A stretch of DNA of 64,000 bases. Source: Octadecabacter sp. (GTDB lineage: Bacteria > Pseudomonadota > Alphaproteobacteria > Rhodobacterales > Rhodobacteraceae). The translations under genes and the position numbers were made by a program. The notes below the pieces were generated by a model. It did no database searches and was not told where the DNA came from. It saw only the letters and a list, made by a program, of their open reading frames with translations. Shown here in pieces: positions 4,123 through 63,877 of the stretch; within the stretch, counting starts at the first letter, position 1, and every line of letters starts with the position of its first letter. The DNA lies in NCBI GenBank assembly GCA_028825445.1, contig JAPKAD010000008.1:1-64000 (forward strand), written 5' to 3'.

Positions 4123-5157
4123 ATGAAGTTCCTAGATCTCTGCAAAGTCTATATTCGTTCTGGAACCGGCGGTGGGGGATGTATTGCTTTCCGACGTGAA
4201 AAATACATAGAATACGGCGGCCCTAATGGTGGCGATGGCGGGCGCGGAGGTGATGTGATCGTCGAAGCAGTCGATAACCTAAATACCTTGATTGACTTTC
4301 GCTATCAGCAACATTTTTTTGCGAAAAATGGTGAAGCTGGCAAAGGTCAGCAACGCACAGGTGCAGATGGTAACGATATTTTACTGAAGGTTCCAACTGG
4401 GACTGAAATTATGGATGAGGATCAGGAAACTGTCCTCATTGATTTGGCCGAAACTGGTCAAACTGTTGTACTGGCAAAAGGTGGCAACGGTGGCTGGGGC
4501 AACCTGCATTTTAAATCGGCCACCAACCAAGCGCCGCGTCGGTCTAACCCAGGTCAGGATGGTATCGAACGCACTGTCTGGCTGCGATTGAAACTGATTG
4601 CAGATGCAGGACTATTAGGACTTCCAAACGCTGGTAAATCAACATTTTTAGCAGCTACATCCAACGCACGTCCAAAGATTGCAGATTATCCATTCACCAC
4701 ATTGATCCCAAACTTGGGTGTTGTGGGTGTTGACGGGTCTGAATTCGTGGTTGCAGATATTCCTGGCTTGATTGAAGGAGCGAGTGACGGCAAGGGCCTT
4801 GGCGATTTGTTCCTCGGTCACGTTGAGCGCTGTTCAGTTCTATTGCACCTAATTGATGGCACATCAGGCGACCCGGTGGGCGACTACAAAACCATCATTG
4901 GAGAACTGGAAAAATACGGGGGCCATTTGATCGACAAGTCGCGCGTGACTGTGTTGAATAAAGTGGATACGTTGGATCCCGAAGAACGAAAATTCATCAT
5001 GGACGAAATTAAGGCAGAGACCGGCGTTGATGTGATGTTGATGGCAGGTGCCACGGGTGAAGGTACGCTCGAAGTGCTAAGAGCACTTAAAGCTGCAATA
5101 GCTGCTGATAGAGTGGCCCGAAATGTTGTCGAGGAGGAAGAACCTTGGCGACCCTAA
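4123..5157 (+). CDS. obgE: GTPase Obg
   Basis: The 344-residue GTPase acts in 50S subunit assembly and growth control. It has the glycine-rich Obg fold at residues 1-159 ([29 protein letters not shown]) and then the G domain with G1 GLPNAGKST at 166-174, G3 DIPGLIEGA and G4 NKVD. It ends shortly after the G domain without the long C-terminal OCT domain of Gram-positive versions, which is usual for this group. The position next to rplU-rpmA is the classic Obg context. proB begins 13 bp before its stop. Confidence 0.97.
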
Positions 5158-6248
5158 AATTAACAAAACGACTTGTTGTTAAAATTGGTTCGGCATTACT
5201 TGTGGATCAGGTTACGGGGCTGCGGATAAGTTGGTTGCGATCACTGGCTACGGATGTAGCCATGATACGAGCACGCGGTACAGACGTTATTTTGGTGTCA
5301 TCTGGATCAATTGCGCTTGGTCGTGGTGTGTTGGGTTTGCCACAATCTGAATTGGCGCTTGAGCAGTCACAAGCAGCTGCCGCTGTTGGACAAATCCGCT
5401 TAGCACGTGCTTATGAAGAAGCTTTGTCACCGTATGGGATCACCACAGCACAAGTTTTGGTTACGCTTGAAGATTCCAAGGATCGCAGGCGCTATCTTAA
5501 CAGTCGGGCGACGATGGAAACATTGTTGTCTCTAGGCGTGACGCCGATCGTCAATGAGAATGATACTGTTGCTACGGACGAAATCCGCTATGGTGATAAT
5601 GATCGCTTAGCGGCACAGGTAGCGGTAACGATTGGTGCGGATTGTTTGGTATTACTGAGTGATGTTGACGGATTTTACTCTGATAATCCCCACACCAATA
5701 GTATCGCGCAGCATTATGATATTATTGAAAAAATCACGCCTGATATTGAACGTCAGGCAGGTGACGCTGAGTCTGGATTGTCCAAGGGCGGAATGAAGAC
5801 CAAGCTGATGGCGGCAAAAATTGCAACAGATGCGGGGTGCCGCATGGCGATTGCGTTAGGAACACCGCTTAACTCATTGAAAAAAGTTGATGATGGTGCA
5901 CGTTGCACGTGGTTTACCGCACAAACAAACCCTCAGGCTGCACGCAAACGCTGGATCGCAGCCATGAAACCTCACGGCGACATAACCGTTGATGATGGGG
6001 CGCAAACTGCATTAAAATCTGGTCGATCTTTGTTACCTATAGGTATTACTATCACTACAGGTACTTATCAGCGTGGCGATCCGGTAGCAATTTTGACTAC
6101 GCGTGGTGAACGGCTTGGCCTTGGGCTATCGCGTTATTCTAGTGATGAAGCAGAGGTAATTAAAGGATTAAGCAGTCAAGACATCTGTAGTGTCCTTGGC
6201 TACGAAGGACGAGGTGTATTTATTCATCGCGACGATATGGTTATTTGA
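5145..6248 (+). CDS. proB: glutamate 5-kinase
   Basis: ProB phosphorylates glutamate, the first step of proline synthesis. The 367-residue protein has an amino-acid kinase domain (about 8-255, with [34 protein letters not shown] and GGMKTKL) and a PUA domain (about 275-355), which together are full length. The start is TTG at 5145, inside obgE, placed 7 bases after a strong GAGGAGG site at 5131-5137; no ATG nearby fits better. In relatives proA normally follows directly. Here the next 380 bp lack proA, so the second enzyme must be encoded elsewhere. Confidence 0.96.
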
Positions 6249-6630
6249 TAAATTTTTTTATGTGTAGTGTCGTGTTTAAAAACACTTCTGGTACTAGCAT
6301 TGTTTTAAACATCAGAGCTTAGCAAATTACGAAAGACATTTAATTATCAATTCAACAAACGATCGCGTGTCATGGCTTCAAGAAGTCTGAGAATTTATTG
6401 TGTAGTATAGTCTGCTCGTGCATCACCGCCTTAAAGGCAAGATTTAGAAATTTTATTTTGATAGAGGTTTTGACGTTTTTGTTTAGTTTGTCATCTTGGG
6501 TTCCGCTGCAAAAATTGCGCGTTCGATCAGTTCAATCCCGTTGCTGATCATGCTCAATGGGTTATGAGATAATGACAAGTTTGACAGCTAATAAAGGCGT
6601 TAATACTAGACAATTGGGAGCTCTGATTAA
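6249..6630. other. gene-poor gap where proA and chpT are expected
   Basis: This 382-bp AT-rich gap follows proB. No trace of proA was found in any frame of its first 230 bp. A small stem (GTGTT at 6272-6276 with AACAC at 6281-6285) lacks a following T-run and is a poor terminator. The right third carries the reverse-strand chpT remnant listed separately. Confidence 0.6.
6483..6598 (-). pseudogene. chpT: remnant of histidine phosphotransferase ChpT
   Basis: On the reverse strand one frame reads AFISCQTCHYLI (6598 downward). A second frame, shifted by one lost base near 6563, reads PLSMISNGIELIERA. Joined, they match the ChpT helix around the phospho-accepting histidine, recalled as GSRICHDLISPxGAIxNGxELL, including the CH-LI and ISNGIEL parts. 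After about 40 residues the match ends at a TAA (6483-6485), and the catalytic-ATPase-like half of ChpT cannot be found. ChpT passes phosphate from CckA to CtrA and CpdR. It sits back-to-back with the DUF3553 gene, which is, as I recall, its usual neighbour. Short but well conserved at the key site. Confidence 0.6.
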
Positions 6631-6810
6631 GTGACAGGATCATCAATTTATCAGCCTGGGATGATCGTAAAGCATCCGACTCAACCAGAGTGGGGTTTGG
6701 GACAGGTCCAATCCACTGTTGGTGGAAAAGTAACAGTTAACTTTCGCGATGTTGGTAAAGTTGTCATTGACGAGATGCGAGTAAATCTCCTGGTTGTGTC
6801 TTTTAATTAA
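6631..6810 (+). CDS. DUF3553 domain-containing small protein
   Basis: This 59-residue protein begins at GTG 6631 and reads on through QPGMIVKHPTQPEWGLGQVQ and VTVNFRDVGKVVI. These match the DUF3553 family of small Rhodobacterales proteins, recalled as having a FV-HPxxPDWGxGQVQS core and a GKxVI end. The fold resembles an SH3-like barrel, similar to the small domains of some helicases and CarD-like proteins; the function is unknown. A GGGAG site (6616-6620) precedes the GTG at an acceptable distance. It is intact although chpT, apparently its former divergent neighbour, has decayed. Confidence 0.8.
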   Translation: MTGSSIYQPGMIVKHPTQPEWGLGQVQSTVGGKVTVNFRDVGKVVIDEMRVNLLVVSFN

Positions 6811-6916
6811 TGCTCACATACATAAATGTATTCAGGCTTTTCATATACTGCAAAGTTTATAGATTGCTTAATTGTATTTTGTTATCAAAAGTCTGGGTGA
6901 TATAAGTGTTATCCCA

Positions 6917-7699
6917 ATGAATTATTTTGAATCTACAAATGCTACGCCTCAGTATGCAGTGCGTATGGCACAAACATTGGGTGACGTGCGCCAAGCTCAG
7001 TCATTGCGGTATCGCGTATTCGTTAAAGAACTCGGTGCAGATGGTCCGCTTATTGACCACAGCGCATGGCTAGAAAAAGATGACTTTGATAAACATTCAG
7101 AACACCTTTTGCTGCTTGATATGGCGCGAAACGATGGCGATCGTGTAGTTGGTGTCTATCGTTTAATGGACAGTGAAAGCGCTTCAATAGCCGGACAATT
7201 TTATTCACAACGCGAGTTTGATTTAGAACCTTTGATTAAATCAGGGCGCACTTTACTGGAACTGGGACGGTCTTGTTTGCACGCTGATTATCGTGGTGGT
7301 GCTGGCATGATGCATTTATGGCAAGGATTGGCTAAAATTGTGCGCGACCGTCAGATTGATGTTTTGTTTGGTGTTGCCAGCTTCCATGGCACAGATTTGG
7401 AAACGTTAGCGCCGTCCTTGTCGCTTTTACACTGTGACTATCTTGCGCCGCGCGATATTTGTGTTCGCTCCAACATCTATGAGGCGTTGGATCGAGGCAC
7501 CGTTTGGGATCGTGTTGACGCGATGAAACAGGTTCCTGCACTTATGAAAGCTTACCTGCGCCTAGGCGGCTTTGTTGGTGATGGTGCATATGTAGATTAT
7601 GAGTTCAACACGACTGATGTTTGTGTGATCCTAGATTTGGCACGTATGAACCAGAATCAAGCGGCGCTATATGGGATACGTAATGATTTGGATGTCTGA
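6917..7699 (+). CDS. olsB: L-ornithine N-acyltransferase OlsB (GNAT fold)
   Basis: OlsB attaches a 3-hydroxyacyl chain to ornithine, giving lyso-ornithine lipid, a phosphorus-free membrane lipid. The protein has the acyl-homoserine-lactone-synthase-like GNAT start (QSLRYRVFVKELGA), then VVGVYRLM, the E(L)GRSCLH stretch and GVASFHGTD, all typical of OlsB. I start at ATG 6917 (260 residues), because the upstream TTG at 6872 adds 15 residues with no family likeness and no good ribosome site. Neither start is strongly marked. The olsA gene overlaps its 3' end, so the two are co-translated. Confidence 0.87.
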   Translation: MNYFESTNATPQYAVRMAQTLGDVRQAQSLRYRVFVKELGADGPLIDHSAWLEKDDFDKHSEHLLLLDMARNDGDRVVGVYRLMDSESASIAGQFYSQREFDLEPLIKSGRTLLELGRSCLHADYRGGAGMMHLWQGLAKIVRDRQIDVLFGVASFHGTDLETLAPSLSLLHCDYLAPRDICVRSNIYEALDRGTVWDRVDAMKQVPALMKAYLRLGGFVGDGAYVDYEFNTTDVCVILDLARMNQNQAALYGIRNDLDV

Positions 7700-22545: not shown

Positions 22546-24007
22546 ATGCGCGACAGAATTTCACGATTGACCGTTGTAAATATTATGCTGATGCATGAGA
22601 TCTGTTGTTAAATTTGAAAATCAGCATGGATTAATTATGAGGACTCATGATATTGGAAAAACTGTAACTCTGCAAATGCTTGCTGAAGTGTTTTCCGAAA
22701 TCGGCGCCACTATGTTTTTGTCGAAAGTAAGGGATAATTTGTAGAAGCTGGTAAAGCTTAGAATCCCATAGTTAAAATTCCATGATCTCTTTATAAAATG
22801 TGCAGCAAACATTGGATTAGATTTGTATTACTTTTTTTCTATGACATTTAAAACCCTTTTTACAAACAAGGCCACCCGATACACGCAACTATTTCAGAAA
22901 AGAGACCGTCATTGATTTTCAACCTAATGGGACTGTCGGGCGCAGAAGATGGTGTTTCGTGTGTTGCATTACACGTAGAAAATGAAGAGGGGTCGCTGTC
23001 ACTAAAGCGTAGTTTTTTACATGCTCTGTTGGTCTGAGCTGGAAAAATTCTGCAAACGTGTTCTTACTCAACGACAATGCAGCGACATCGTCTGTTGCTG
23101 CAATTCAGCTATAATTAATGGTGTTTGAAATCTAAGGTTGAGCAGGGCTGTTTGGTAAATCAGACCCAAGTCTTTTCCATGTTTAGACAACTGAACAGAA
23201 TAGGCTGCGCGTTGTACAATGGCGAATAATATTTTGCGCAATATGAATTAATGTCAATCTTTTGATTTTAAACCATCTTTACATGATTTTAACCTAATTG
23301 TATTAAACAACTACTAGAAATTGGCAATCTCAAAAGCTCAAGCTGATGTTTTTCTTTAATGAAAAGCGTTTCCTTTTAATAACGTTCACAAAGCATTGAT
23401 GGACAAGGAAGATCAGGCTGTGCGGTTGATCTGTTCTAAGGTCGTTGATGTCTATTTTATTATTTAAAAACTGTCTCATGTCTTCAAAACATGCTGAGCA
23501 GGCTTGGCAATTATGTTCAAAAAGCACGGCGGGCCATTATGGCAAATGATCAAAACGTACTCAAGCTAGTAGCGAAAATCTATTGAAAAGATTCTCCATT
23601 TGATACTGTTGAAGAAGTTCGTTCAGTTGATATAGGAGAAGCTATAATACTTATGCTGTTAGACATTGGCACATTCGGAATTTAGAGCTCAAGCTGATAC
23701 ATCCACAGTAATCACAAATGAGCCCAATTACGAAAAATGAACGTGCTGGAGTAATTGTTGCTTTGCTAATGGCCGGTAAACACAAAAGTAATTCTATGTT
23801 TTGCATCCGAGTTTTGAATGCCTGCTAAACGGGCAGGCGCTTAGGAAAATGTAGCAGAAAGAAAGCAGAAAAAGGTATTGTTGAAGAAGAAACGCCAAAG
23901 GCAGAAGAACGCTAAACCCTCTGTCTTTTGTTGCTAAAGAACTGATTGGCATAAAAGGCCAGCGCATTGTGAGTGGCATTCTGAGCGGGCTATATCGCAG
24001 GCGATAA
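22546..24007 (+). pseudogene. decayed HerA-like/DUF853 (YjgR-type) ATPase gene
   Basis: Read across frames, this stretch gives most of a HerA-like C-terminal-domain ATPase of about 500 residues. Segments in order: YADA-DLLLNL (22580s), QHGLI then GKTVTLQMLAEVFSEIGATM in the P-loop region (22625-22720), IGLDLYYFFSMTFKTLF, HPIHATISE, NLMGLSGAEDGV, KLMFFFNEKRFLFNN (Walker B, family FFFDEAHLLF), KALMDKEDQAVRLICSK, DTVEEVRSVDIGEA, SPITKNERAGV and finally QRIVSGILSGLYRRR ending at TAA 24005-24007. The P-loop glycines are changed (family GATGTGKT). Many stops and frameshifts and a deleted middle show old decay. Intact relatives are DNA-binding ATPases of unclear role. It lies between the IalB and CNNM/CorC genes. 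Confidence 0.85.
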
Positions 24008-34974: not shown

Positions 34975-36021
34975 TTATGAAATACGAATGCGTGGGTTAA
35001 GGAATACATAACCAATGTCAGATATCAGCTGTGTCATTAGAACAACGATAACTGAGATTACGGAAACGCCAAGCAACATTTCAATATCGTTGTTGGACGC
35101 AGCCCGCACAAGTTCCCAACCAAAGCCCTTGTAGTTAAAAAGAGTTTCAACAATTACTACTCCGTTGAGAAGCCACGGTACTTGCAACATTATGACTGTA
35201 AATGGTGCTATTAACGCATTGCGTAAAGCGTGTTTTATGACGATATTGGCAAAGCTCACACCTTTAAGGCGGGCAGTGCGGACATATTGTGCAGTCATTA
35301 TCTCGGTCATTGATGCGCGTGTCATACGGGCGATGTAGCCCATACCATAAATCGCAATCGTCATTACCGGAAGAAAAAAGTTGTTGAATGTAATATTGTC
35401 CATGGCCGATGTTGCGGTTCCCTTGAAATACTGCATCCCAAATAATGGTGTCGCGAACAGAGCTATTAAAATGACACCTGATACATATTCCGGCGTTGCC
35501 GTTGCAATAATTGATACTGTGGAGAGTGAGCGATCGGTACGTGAACCTTCGCGCATACCTGCAAGCACACCGATAATAAGCGCCCCTGGAACCATGACCA
35601 TTAGTACCCAGAACATCAATTTTCCGGTATTGCCAAGACGTGTTGGCAGCACATCAGCGACGTCTTCTTTGGCAACTGTTGAAAACCCCCAGTTACCTTG
35701 AATTATGCCACAGAAAGTCGGGGTTTCATCAGTTGGAGGGGAATTCCGTTCGCATTTTGAGCGGATCTCACCATCTGAACCTTCAATAATATAGCCAGGG
35801 ACTACACCAAGCCATTGTCCATACTTTACAGGCAAGGCCTGCGTATAACCTCGGTTACCCAGATAACTGATTACCGCTTCGTCAGACATACGGAAATTAC
35901 CTTGAGTCTTGGCTAGTACTTCAAGTTTTGGGTAGAGGTTAGTAAGCCAAAACACTATAAATGTTAGGCAAATCGCAGTGAGGACCATTACCCCAAGGCG
36001 GCGCAAAATAAACAGTCCCAT
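34975..36021 (-). CDS. ABC transporter permease (DppB-like)
   Basis: The 348-residue membrane protein is the DppB-type half of the import channel. It has the N-terminal helix (RRLGVMVLTAICLTFIVFWL), a periplasmic stretch of about 100 residues, and the EAA loop YVRTARLKGVSFANIVIKHALRN, which docks on the ATPase. The last segment (ISDIGYVFLNPRIRIS) is the family end. The gene is separated from the binding-protein gene by a hairpin, which would let the binding protein be made in excess. Confidence 0.93.
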   Translation of the reverse strand: MGLFILRRLGVMVLTAICLTFIVFWLTNLYPKLEVLAKTQGNFRMSDEAVISYLGNRGYTQALPVKYGQWLGVVPGYIIEGSDGEIRSKCERNSPPTDETPTFCGIIQGNWGFSTVAKEDVADVLPTRLGNTGKLMFWVLMVMVPGALIIGVLAGMREGSRTDRSLSTVSIIATATPEYVSGVILIALFATPLFGMQYFKGTATSAMDNITFNNFFLPVMTIAIYGMGYIARMTRASMTEIMTAQYVRTARLKGVSFANIVIKHALRNALIAPFTVIMLQVPWLLNGVVIVETLFNYKGFGWELVRAASNNDIEMLLGVSVISVIVVLMTQLISDIGYVFLNPRIRIS

Positions 36022-38075: not shown

Positions 38076-38894
38076 TTAAACCTTCTCAAGCGGACCTTTT
38101 TTACGCAATTGTGATGGTGTTAAGCTGGTATTAGCCTGAAAAGCACGAGCGAAATAAGCAGAGGAGCTGAAGCCAAGATCTGCTGCGATTTTATGTATCG
38201 GTACTTTGCTGTTGCGCAGCAGTATGTGCGCTTCAAAAAAAATACGAATATTCAGAAGGGACAGTGCAGGTTTTCCACAGGTCTTTTTACAACAACGCGC
38301 AAGGTGGGTCGGCGTGAAACCAAGATTAACAGCATAAACAGCGACACCTGCTTGCTGGTGGTAATCGCGGTCGATCAGGCTCGTGTAGGCTGAAACTAGT
38401 TTGGCCGCTGCGGTGTTGGCGCGATTATCTGTTTTTTATTCTGGTCGCAAAGCCACCTGACGCTCAATGTAAACAGATAAAAGGCCAACCTGATAGTGAG
38501 CCGCGCGGTAGTGGCCAAGCTGTGTTGATTTCAGCTCTCTTTCCAACGCTTCCATCTGTCCAGCAAGTTCTTTTTGGGCTATTATATATAGCAGGCGTAA
38601 ATATAGTGAGTTTGACGGCCATTCGGTCGCTATTGCGGTCGGGACTGTTCGAATGACCCCAAACACTGTTTGATTAACTTTAAATCAGTACATAGTTCTG
38701 CCTGGAATATATATCAGGTTGTTGGCACTGTAACCGTTGGTTAGAGTAGATATCTTGATGCGTCCTTGAACTCGCGTTACAAAAATCAGAAGCGGCGTCT
38801 TGTGAGAACGCATCGTTTCTGTACGCCAGTGACCTTGGCCGGCGATTTGACTGATTGACGGTAATGCCAAGCGGTTTTGCGGGTCAGTTATCAT
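38076..38894 (-). pseudogene. AraC-family regulator gene with two in-frame stops
   Basis: One continuous reverse frame of 272 codons runs from ATG 38894 to TAA 38076-38078. It is broken only by TGA at 38685-38687 (codon 70) and TAA at 38436-38438 (codon 153); no frameshift is needed. The N-terminal part (LLIFVTRVQGRIKISTLTNG, NNLIYIPGRTMY) is a cupin-like sensor, the middle (ELAGQMEALERELKS, AAHYQVGLLSVYIERQ) is helical, and the end has both AraC helix-turn-helix motifs (YAVNLGFTPTHLARCCKKT; IHKIAADLGFSSSAYFARAF). No part alone would have both sensor and DNA-binding parts. It may once have controlled the importer operon 260 bp downstream. Confidence 0.9.
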
Positions 38895-57177: not shown

Positions 57178-58317
57178 TTAATACCCGCGCCAGATCCACC
57201 CACCACCAAAGATGCGGCTACTATTACTGTCATAAAATACACATGCCTGTCCGGGTGCAACACCTTCTTCTGGTGTTAGTAGTTCGATTTCGGCTGTTGT
57301 AGCGGACAATGGACGTACTATCGCCTCCATTGGGGGTTTTGTAGACCGAATTTTGACTGAAATATGGCGTTCAGTCGTTGCATCAAATTCATCATCGCCA
57401 AGCCAGTTGATTTCGCGCACCGGAACGGTGCGAGTGGTTAGCAGGTCTTTCGGGCCAACAATTACGTGCTTCTTGTCAACATCGAGCTTTACCACATAAA
57501 GTGGATCTGCAAGCCCTCCGATTCCAAGGCCACGGCGCTGGCCTATTGTGTAGTGTATGACCCCGCAATGCTGCGCCAAAACTCTTCCGTCCATGTCCAC
57601 GATATCACCAGGTTCAGCAGCTCCAGGGCGCAGTTTTTCGATTACAGATGCATAATTGCCGTTTGGAACGAAACAAATATCTTGGCTATCGGGCTTGTCT
57701 GCAAGCGCCAGCCCATATTTTCGTGCTAATTCGCGCGTTGCATCTTTAGAAGGAAGATGTCCCAGCGGGAAACGCAGATAATCAAGTTGTTCCGGCTTGG
57801 TTGAGAACAGAAAATAGCTTTGATCGCGGTTGGCATCTTCAGCGCAATGCAACTCCGCCCCGCGTACGCCCATTTTGCGTTGAATATAGTGTCCGGTCGC
57901 CATGCAGTCAGCGTCAAGATCTTTAGCAGTTTCTAACAAATCCTTGAACTTCACCCGCTCATTGCAGCGAATACATGGCACAGGGGTCGCACCTGCTAGG
58001 TAGCTATCAGCAAATTCATCAATTACAGCTTCACGGAAGGTGTTTTCATAATCAAGGACATAGTGGGGAAAACCCATGTCCTCAGCTACGCGGCGCGCAT
58101 CATGGATATCGCGCCCCGCACAGCAGGCACCTTTTTTGGCCAATGCGGCCCCGTGATCGTACAGCTGCAAAGTCACACCAACCACATCATAGCCCTCTTC
58201 AGCCAACTGTGCGGCGACCACAGAGCTGTCCACCCCACCAGACATCGCAACAACGACGCGGGTTTGTGATGGTGGCTTGGCAAAACCGAGCGAATTGAGA
58301 GGTTGATCAAGGGGCAT
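57178..58317 (-). CDS. mnmA: tRNA-specific 2-thiouridylase MnmA
   Basis: MnmA thiolates U34 of Lys, Glu and Gln tRNAs. The 379 residues include the PP-loop [51 protein letters not shown] with the catalytic cysteine, [18 protein letters not shown], and [17 protein letters not shown], then the C-terminal beta domains ([17 protein letters not shown]). In relatives sciP and ctrA lie on its other side; here both are decayed. Confidence 0.96.
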
Positions 58318-58448: not shown

Positions 58449-58707
58449 ATGTATTTAAAGAAGTATGAAGGTTAAGACTGGTAAAATTACCAGATGTATT
58501 CAACATGACACGATCAAATCTTCAACTGCCTGAAACACGGCAATATGGGAATTGCACAAAATATTTGTTGTGCGTGTAAATTTTTATTTTTTATTTTTGC
58601 TTAATAATTTGTAAGTCACCTGTGTGTTGTCCGATGAAGCGTTGTTGAAGTGGGAAGTGGCTGTTCTAGGCCACATCCAAGTTACGTTTAAAGCAATTGC
58701 ATTATAA
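58449..58707 (+). pseudogene. sciP: decayed sciP (DUF1153) gene, inhibitor of CtrA activity
   Basis: From ATG 58449 the frame reads MYLKKYEG and stops. A shifted frame continues LVKLPDVFNMTRSNLQLPET, and another gives KIFVVRVNFYFLFLLNN, VLSDEALLKWEVAVLGH and TFKAIAL before TAA 58705-58707. Intact DUF1153 proteins, as recalled, read MYLKKVxGPRxVTLPDGxxMTRSDLP, RWVxxRKAAVVRAVxxGLLS, LSxEEFxSWxxAV and KATALQKYR over about 90 residues; the remnant's 86 codons fit. SciP binds DNA and blocks CtrA-driven transcription in Caulobacter. At least two frameshifts make it non-functional. It sits between mnmA and the ctrA remnant, the expected position. Confidence 0.85.
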
Positions 58708-58797
58708 TTATAATTTAAGGAGGATCTGTAAATTTATGTACAATTTTTAATGTGTGGTAAACCATTGTTAGCATAAGTTCTTTTAGACATCGAAAGA

Positions 58798-59456
58798 ATG
58801 GAAAAAGTGTACAGTTGGTAGAAGACAATTCATTGACCGCCAAGATTTCAACTATTAATTATGGTTAAGAGGGAATAGTTCTCGCAAAGTTTGATTATTA
58901 CGACTTGATCCCTCTGCGCCTTAATCTGCCGATTATAAATGGAGATGAGAAGTTTAGCCAAATCAGACTTAGATTAACCGAAACCGAATGCTGATTTTAT
59001 TTGGCTAAGATGCAATTAAAAGTAAGTTTAATGAGTTGAGTTTTAGACTGACGACTATATAAAAATTATCTCTTCATTACGAAAGAAGGGTATAGTGGGT
59101 TAATGCTACCATCCACTGTTAAAAAGGTAATAAAACATTATCCAAATGATTTTACCGCTCTAAAATTAGTTGTTAAAAAAGTTGATGTCCATAATAGCCC
59201 TGTGCATTTAACGGGCAATGAATAACAAATATTTGAAATGTTGAACCTGTTTAAGGGAACGGCAGATACCAAAGAGTTGTTTCTTAATCATTTGTATGAT
59301 GACAAGAATAAACTTAATTTTAAAATTATTGATATTTTTATTTACAAGCTGCATTAGAGATTATTTGAGACAACGGGCGATGACAATCACGCCAAAAATG
59401 TTTGAGGCCCTGCACTTTCTAGAACCGAAGGCCAAGCATGGTTGGAAAACTGGTGA
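58798..59456 (+). pseudogene. ctrA: decayed ctrA, cell-cycle response regulator
   Basis: Across frames the stretch reads VQLVEDNSLTAKI (receiver start), LAKFDYYDLIPLRLNLP (family DYDLILLDLNLP, with arginine where the phosphorylated aspartate should be), DAIKSKFNELSFRLTDDYIK, VHLTGNE, KELFLNHLYDD, KIIDIFIYKL and ETTGDDNHAKNV followed by TGA where CtrA has tryptophan. These cover both the receiver and the OmpR-type winged-helix domain in order, with about 15 residues missing near the start. Many stops and frameshifts are present. CtrA controls cell-cycle, motility and gene-transfer-agent genes in alphaproteobacteria. It lies between the sciP remnant and intact ligA, the usual locus. Confidence 0.9.
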
Positions 59457-59490
59457 TAGGCGCTTAAATTGCAATACAGAAACTTAGTGC

Positions 59491-59549: not shown

Positions 59550-63877
<4,328 letters not shown>

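Follow-up and report, generated by a model that had tools for sequence, protein, structure and literature searches.

Pseudogenes of ctrA and sciP and a chpT remnant point to loss of the CtrA regulatory module in an Octadecabacter lineage

Introduction

The response regulator CtrA, which is essential in Caulobacter, belongs in Rhodobacterales to a phosphorelay with the hybrid kinase CckA and the phosphotransferase ChpT, and is accompanied by an inhibitor, SciP. Those Rhodobacterales that have been studied survive mutation of ctrA (PMC8116508); the core CtrA targets are flagellar genes and genes for c-di-GMP turnover, the gene transfer agent (GTA) is a conserved target, and the fla2 and fla3 flagellar clusters have moved horizontally (PMC12363192). 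Natural absence of ctrA is described for Granulibacter and Pelagibacter (PMC2877005). For Octadecabacter, CtrA sites are reported before quorum-sensing genes in O. antarcticus 307 (PMC4046655), and O. arcticus and O. antarcticus are described as non-motile despite their flagellar clusters (PMC3646047). The latter paper is not among the open-access papers naming both Octadecabacter and CtrA, and we found no report of Octadecabacter ctrA decay among the matches listed for an open-access library.

Here we analyze a stretch of 64,000 nt (the window; positions 1–64,000 of contig JAPKAD010000008.1) from the Octadecabacter sp. assembly GCA_028825445.1 (the host; 3.22 Mb, 135 contigs, 88% complete). 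Compared with the Rhodobacterales-type CckA-ChpT-CtrA phosphorelay with SciP, the host remnants are orthologous and keep the ancestral order mnmA-sciP-ctrA-ligA, but ctrA, sciP, and chpT are broken. Like Granulibacter and Pelagibacter, the host is an alphaproteobacterium without ctrA; in those genera no ortholog was found (PMC2877005), whereas in the host a decaying ctrA and its partners can still be read in place, within a family in which ctrA is near-universal. The laboratory deletions of ctrA, cckA, and chpT in P. inhibens and D. shibae (PMC12363192 and PMC4046655) likewise remove the phosphorelay from living cells, but the loss in the host is natural, old, and joined by deletion of the GTA target. 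The host also shares its genus with the pseudogene-rich polar Octadecabacter genomes, whose pseudogenes are mostly tied to mobile elements (PMC3646047), while the decay described here consists of point changes and indels. We consider loss of the CtrA regulatory module in this Octadecabacter lineage highly likely; the circuit would have become dispensable and decayed together with its partners.

Results and Discussion

ctrA and sciP are pseudogenes between intact flanking genes

We compared the host with its genus in a set of 19 Octadecabacter genomes, host included. Genome G003 is O. arcticus 238, and G002 is probably O. antarcticus 307, on the basis of its chromosomal flagellar cluster (PMC3646047). 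In a tree of MnmA and LigA, the host, G002, G003, and G009 form one clade (support 100), within which the host groups with G002 (support 85) and G009 with G003 (support 55). The locus contains the following features:

57178..58317, minus strand: mnmA, intact, 379 aa, left flank of sciP-ctrA (ORF, PF03054, synteny)
58449..58727, plus strand: sciP pseudogene, CtrA inhibitor, PF06627 / NF051866 (tblastn fragments, frame translations, alignment)
58806..59467, plus strand: ctrA pseudogene (NF045991 match with stops; alignments to intact relatives; translation)
59649..61769, plus strand: ligA, intact, 706 aa, right flank of ctrA (ORF, PF01653, synteny)

The Rhodobacterales CtrA model NF045991 matches window positions 58833–59408 (E 5.6e-27, 95 bits, model positions 23–216 of 224) through seven in-frame stops (four TGA, one TAG, and two TAA), and at the DNA level homology with the intact G002 gene spans about 58806–59467. 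Deletions of 4 (at the start codon), 36, 1, 1, 4, 1, 11, and 2 bases and a single 1-base insertion separate the two genes, the exact division of these indels being dependent on the alignment. At the phospho-acceptor site the remnant reads DLIPLRLNLP in place of DLILLDINLP, so that arginine replaces the aspartate. With seven stops, a deleted start codon, and arginine at the phosphorylation site, this gene does not specify a functional CtrA response regulator. Its orthology to ctrA is nonetheless supported by the 95-bit match despite the stops, its alignment to G002 ctrA, and its position at the ancestral mnmA/ligA locus.

An initial annotation of this DNA had placed a ctrA pseudogene here, with coordinates and a description that agree with the NF045991 match, the seven stops, and the alignment to G002. 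Its account of homology in several frames with stops is accurate in view of the nine indels, although a single frame holds most of the homology, and the arginine that it read at the receiver's phosphorylated aspartate is borne out. The neighbors mnmA and ligA are intact, as it had stated; the nearest upstream neighbor, however, is sciP, itself a pseudogene.

The sciP remnant, located between mnmA and ctrA, consists of two tblastn fragments with deletions of 1, 1, and 6 bases and stops in all three frames. A functional SciP would be an unbroken DUF1153 protein some 90 aa long, but the host assembly yielded no PF06627 match. The intact copy of G002 is identified as CtrAInhibSciP, with 116 bits on NF051866 (cut-off 100). 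Across the genus, ctrA scores above the cut-off in 16 of 19 genomes, the exceptions being the host, G008 (79% complete), and G014 (61% complete), and PF06627 likewise matches in 16 of 19, with the same three exceptions. Among 80 named loci scanned from mnmA, 77 have, next to mnmA, a stop-free CtrA match that covers 225 or more of the 239 residues; the remaining three are L100 with no match and L111 with 72 residues at a contig end (both short contigs), and L112 with 179 residues. The order mnmA-sciP-ctrA-ligA is ancestral and the two remnants are orthologs.

The decay of ctrA and sciP looks neutral and old

To characterize the changes we considered sites that are identical in five relatives (G002, G003, G004, G005, and G009). 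Host ctrA carries 122 substitutions at 456 such sites, affecting 51 of 193, 54 of 210, and 17 of 53 sites at codon positions 1, 2, and 3, respectively (chi-square p = 0.64), and sciP behaves similarly (20/70, 27/76, and 4/23; p = 0.23). The intact mnmA control differs at 3 of 282, 1 of 303, and 15 of 79 sites (p = 5e-19). With change distributed equally over codon positions, the decay of ctrA and sciP looks neutral. The 122 ctrA changes include 82 from GC to AT and 19 from AT to GC, an excess that agrees with the GC content of the host, which is 46% where the corresponding stretches of G002 and G003 have 56%. At fourfold sites selected by the same rule of identity among relatives, the host differs at 8 of 23 in mnmA and 8 of 19 in ligA (four relatives for ligA). 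The pseudogene divergence of about 0.27 therefore amounts to a large part of the silent-site divergence, and judged by this rough dating from few sites the loss of ctrA is not recent.

chpT is an eroded remnant and the GTA cluster is deleted

The phosphotransferase gene chpT is damaged at a second locus of the window, which has the following layout:

5145..6248, plus strand: proB, intact, left flank of the chpT site (ORF, synteny with G009)
6249..6405, no strand: site of the deleted proA and the 3' part of chpT (comparison with the G009 order, ORFs of both)
6406..6614, minus strand: chpT remnant (phosphotransferase), about residues 1–71 of 195, eroded, the rest gone (tblastn fragments, blastn to the G009 chpT locus)
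6631..6810, plus strand: DUF3553 gene, intact, right flank of the chpT site (PF12073, E 3.1e-24; blastn to G009)
6872..7699, plus strand: OlsB-like ornithine acyltransferase gene, intact (NF052554, 347 bits, slightly below the cut-off of 350)

The order in G009 is obg-proB-proA-chpT-DUF3553-acyltransferase, where obg, proB, and proA are genes that we presume to be so named. In the host, 275 bp replaces about 1.75 kb of G009, and the match resumes inside chpT after the end of proB. By tblastn, chpT residues 18–41 lie at 6563–6492 and residues 54–71 at 6459–6406. PF10090 scores above the cut-off in 16 of 19 genus genomes and is absent from the host, G014, and G015; the host assembly as a whole contains no PF10090 match and hence no functional ChpT (about 195 aa with PF10090). 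The gene proA is gone from this site, and its best match on the window contig has an E value of 2.6. Unless proA sits elsewhere, the host may need outside proline following this deletion.

The GTA, a target of CtrA, is missing as well. The GTA marker PF13547 has no match in the host assembly (88% complete) and is found in 15 of 19 genus genomes, being absent from the host, G005, G008, and G011. Contig C106 of the host matches G002 up to the edge of the GTA cluster and resumes 14.4 kb further on, with a host gap of only 1.1 kb. Seven G002 ORFs scanned within these 14.4 kb include genes for terminase, major capsid, head-tail connector, tail proteins, and the GTA_TIM protein. The scar in the host (L201 10914–12037) retains about 0.2 kb that still resembles the terminase ORF. 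The RcGTA-type structural cluster has thus been deleted from between conserved flanks, and its absence is a real deletion at its own locus. GTA loss alone does not bring about decay of the module, because G005 (about 99% complete), which lacks PF13547, keeps ctrA, sciP, and chpT.

Taken together, the decayed ctrA and sciP, the chpT remnant, and the deleted GTA cluster support the proposal of the initial annotation that this lineage lost CtrA control, the last three of these having escaped it.

A divergent flagellum is retained, and cckA likely falls into an assembly gap

FlhA is intact on host contig C89 and is of the same divergent type as in G002 and G003. FlhA scores are 776–783 bits in these three genomes versus 699–717 in 14 others (17 of 19 genomes with a match), and no second FlhA was found in the host, G002, or G003 assemblies. 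FlhA was named by search; the other flagellar genes are ones that we take to be such. Five host flagellar genes, flhA among them, differ from their G002 counterparts mainly at third codon positions and hence look selected. The divergent flagellar cluster may correspond to the fla2 type of the literature. Using motifs that we assume to represent CtrA sites, we found no excess of CtrA-like sites in the flagellar stretches of the host, G002, and G003, nor in those of the controls G006, G009, and G012. GTTAAC exceeded expectation in two of five control stretches with the other FlhA type (11 versus 5.5 in G018 and 10 versus 6.4 in G004), so the lack of an excess in the host does not establish that its flagellum has escaped CtrA control.

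For the hybrid kinase CckA (about 780 aa), a protein search found no ortholog in the host assembly; the best match is a paralog of 30% identity, compared with 91–100% for the orthologs in G002, G003, and G009. A 10-kb DNA query around G009 cckA gave no match in the host assembly (88% complete), although a query of this type did succeed for the GTA region, and guaB is likewise missing. The two genes adjoin in G009 and G002 and lie about 126 kb apart in G003. A shared assembly gap for guaB and cckA is likely, although not certain.

Two relatives carry separate lesions in the same module

In G003, ctrA (L151 15501–16121 and downstream) shifts frame near codon 207, in the winged helix. The alignment contains two single-base deletions, and the CtrA model match ends at position 207 yet remains above the cut-off. 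An ORF that we take to be transposase-like lies downstream, and the GTA_TIM gene of G003 is in two pieces. The chpT gene of G002 is interrupted by a single in-frame stop, at codon 56 (L161 9409–9411); the match is otherwise full length at 89% identity, and the open frame, at 139 aa, is correspondingly short. In G003 and G009, chpT is open. These single or double small changes in G002 chpT and G003 ctrA could be sequence errors.

All three genomes with the divergent FlhA (host, G002, and G003) hence carry a lesion in the CtrA module, in a small sample of three genomes from one clade. G009, which belongs to the same clade and has the usual FlhA type, has open ctrA, sciP, chpT, and cckA. Of the 14 genomes whose FlhA is of the usual type, ctrA is above the cut-off and stop-free in 12, with the incomplete G008 and G014 as exceptions, and chpT is above the cut-off in 12, with G014 and G015 as exceptions (by domain match; the whole gene was inspected in G009). 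Having the divergent flagellum does not entail loss of the whole module, because G002 keeps ctrA, sciP, cckA, and the GTA, and G003 keeps sciP, chpT, and cckA.

A model for loss of the module

We propose that the CtrA-controlled traits, namely the GTA and the usual Rhodobacterales flagellum, would no longer have paid, such that selection on the phosphorelay lapsed. The divergent flagellar type, the only one found, would stand in place of the usual flagellum. Subsequently, ctrA, its inhibitor gene sciP, and the phosphotransferase gene chpT would have decayed through AT-biased point mutation and deletion. Cells can still grow and divide, since CtrA is dispensable in those Rhodobacterales that have been studied. 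A more specific version, which we advance tentatively and rate a little below even, is that a divergent flagellum replacing the ancestral CtrA-driven one made the phosphorelay expendable in polar Octadecabacter, with a different step breaking in each genome: old and throughout the module in the host, fresh in O. arcticus 238 and G002. If true, these genomes would form a natural record of how a core alphaproteobacterial regulator is cut off from its regulon and disappears, with flagellar genes being retained. More generally, with regulator, inhibitor, and phosphotransferase half decayed, the host shows the company that a circuit keeps as it is lost and the traits that outlive it, and serves as a natural test case for the question whether CtrA is kept in Rhodobacterales by motility and gene transfer.

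Alternative explanations

The alternative that survives best, although we consider it unlikely, is general genome decay, in which the CtrA module fell along with many other genes under weak selection for a cause unrelated to its targets. The low GC content of the host relative to the matching regions of its relatives would fit such a process, as would further gene decay within the window. The region collinear with G002 holds 48 ORFs that both G002 and G003 conserve, and eight of them are not intact in the host: ctrA, sciP, genes that we take to be a HerA-like ATPase, an AraC-like regulator, and a xerC-like gene, and three ORFs whose status as genes is doubtful (62, 64, and 156 aa). The HerA-like gene is fragmented at 22604–23155 and the AraC-like gene has two stops at 38088–38894, both being intact in G002 and G003; the stop in the xerC-like gene lies close to the gene end. 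According to PMC3646047, O. arcticus and O. antarcticus contain 411 and 361 pseudogenes, respectively. However, the other 40 of the 48 ORFs are intact, so decay is not wholesale in the collinear region, yet ctrA, sciP, and chpT, the three module genes open to assessment, are all broken and the GTA has been lost. The apparent selection on five flagellar genes and the separate module lesions in G002 and G003 also argue against general decay.

It is improbable that only the window copy was lost while an intact ctrA persists on a replicon outside the assembly, possibly together with sciP and chpT, and maintains CtrA control. A second ctrA could sit in the missing part of the 88% complete assembly, and O. 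arcticus 238 bears large gene clusters on plasmids (PMC3646047). A search of the whole assembly found no match above the NF045991 cut-off and therefore no intact second ctrA, and across the 19 genus genomes the best match besides the one ctrA reaches 178 bits against a cut-off of 350. Moreover, a spare ctrA leaves unexplained the damage to three module genes at two loci and the GTA deletion. None of four host regulators scanned against NCBIfam passed the CtrA cut-off, and only the best of them, C9:115375–116040, passed that of any family shown, which identified it as PhoB (334 bits versus a cut-off of 296).

We regard it as very improbable that the decayed region still serves some other purpose, for example as an RNA or short peptide. 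Between mnmA and ligA, about 1.3 kb that contains no long ORF has been kept, but no Rfam family matches there at the gathering threshold and the changes look neutral. Finally, a sequencing or binning artefact can be virtually dismissed even for a fragmented draft of 135 contigs, since collinearity with G002 and G003 (about 74–83% identity) runs through the ctrA site, the 122 substitutions at invariant sites are even over codon positions, AT-biased, and located between intact genes, and the chpT and GTA losses lie between conserved flanks.

CtrA loss in the family

Loss of the CtrA module in the host is a natural loss of a known system rather than a new kind of system. We surveyed 395 genomes of the family, comprising the host and others at a requested completeness of at least 95%. 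Of these, 373 match CtrA with an E value of at most 1e-70 and 369 score above the cut-off, and 22, host included, have no match at E 1e-70; CtrA loss or strong divergence thus recurs at about 5%. The host case is therefore informative and not unique, given that gene loss is ordinary and that CtrA has repeatedly been lost or has diverged within the family. Unusually, the host shows the circuit in the course of decay: the fate of its partners and of its target can be read at their respective loci, and two relatives have lesions of their own. The 21 further family genomes without an E 1e-70 match include G024, G151, G166, and G309, which are 99–100% complete.

Elsewhere in the window, Cis52_sRNA (Rfam) matches at 35220–35393 with 77 bits, above its gathering score.
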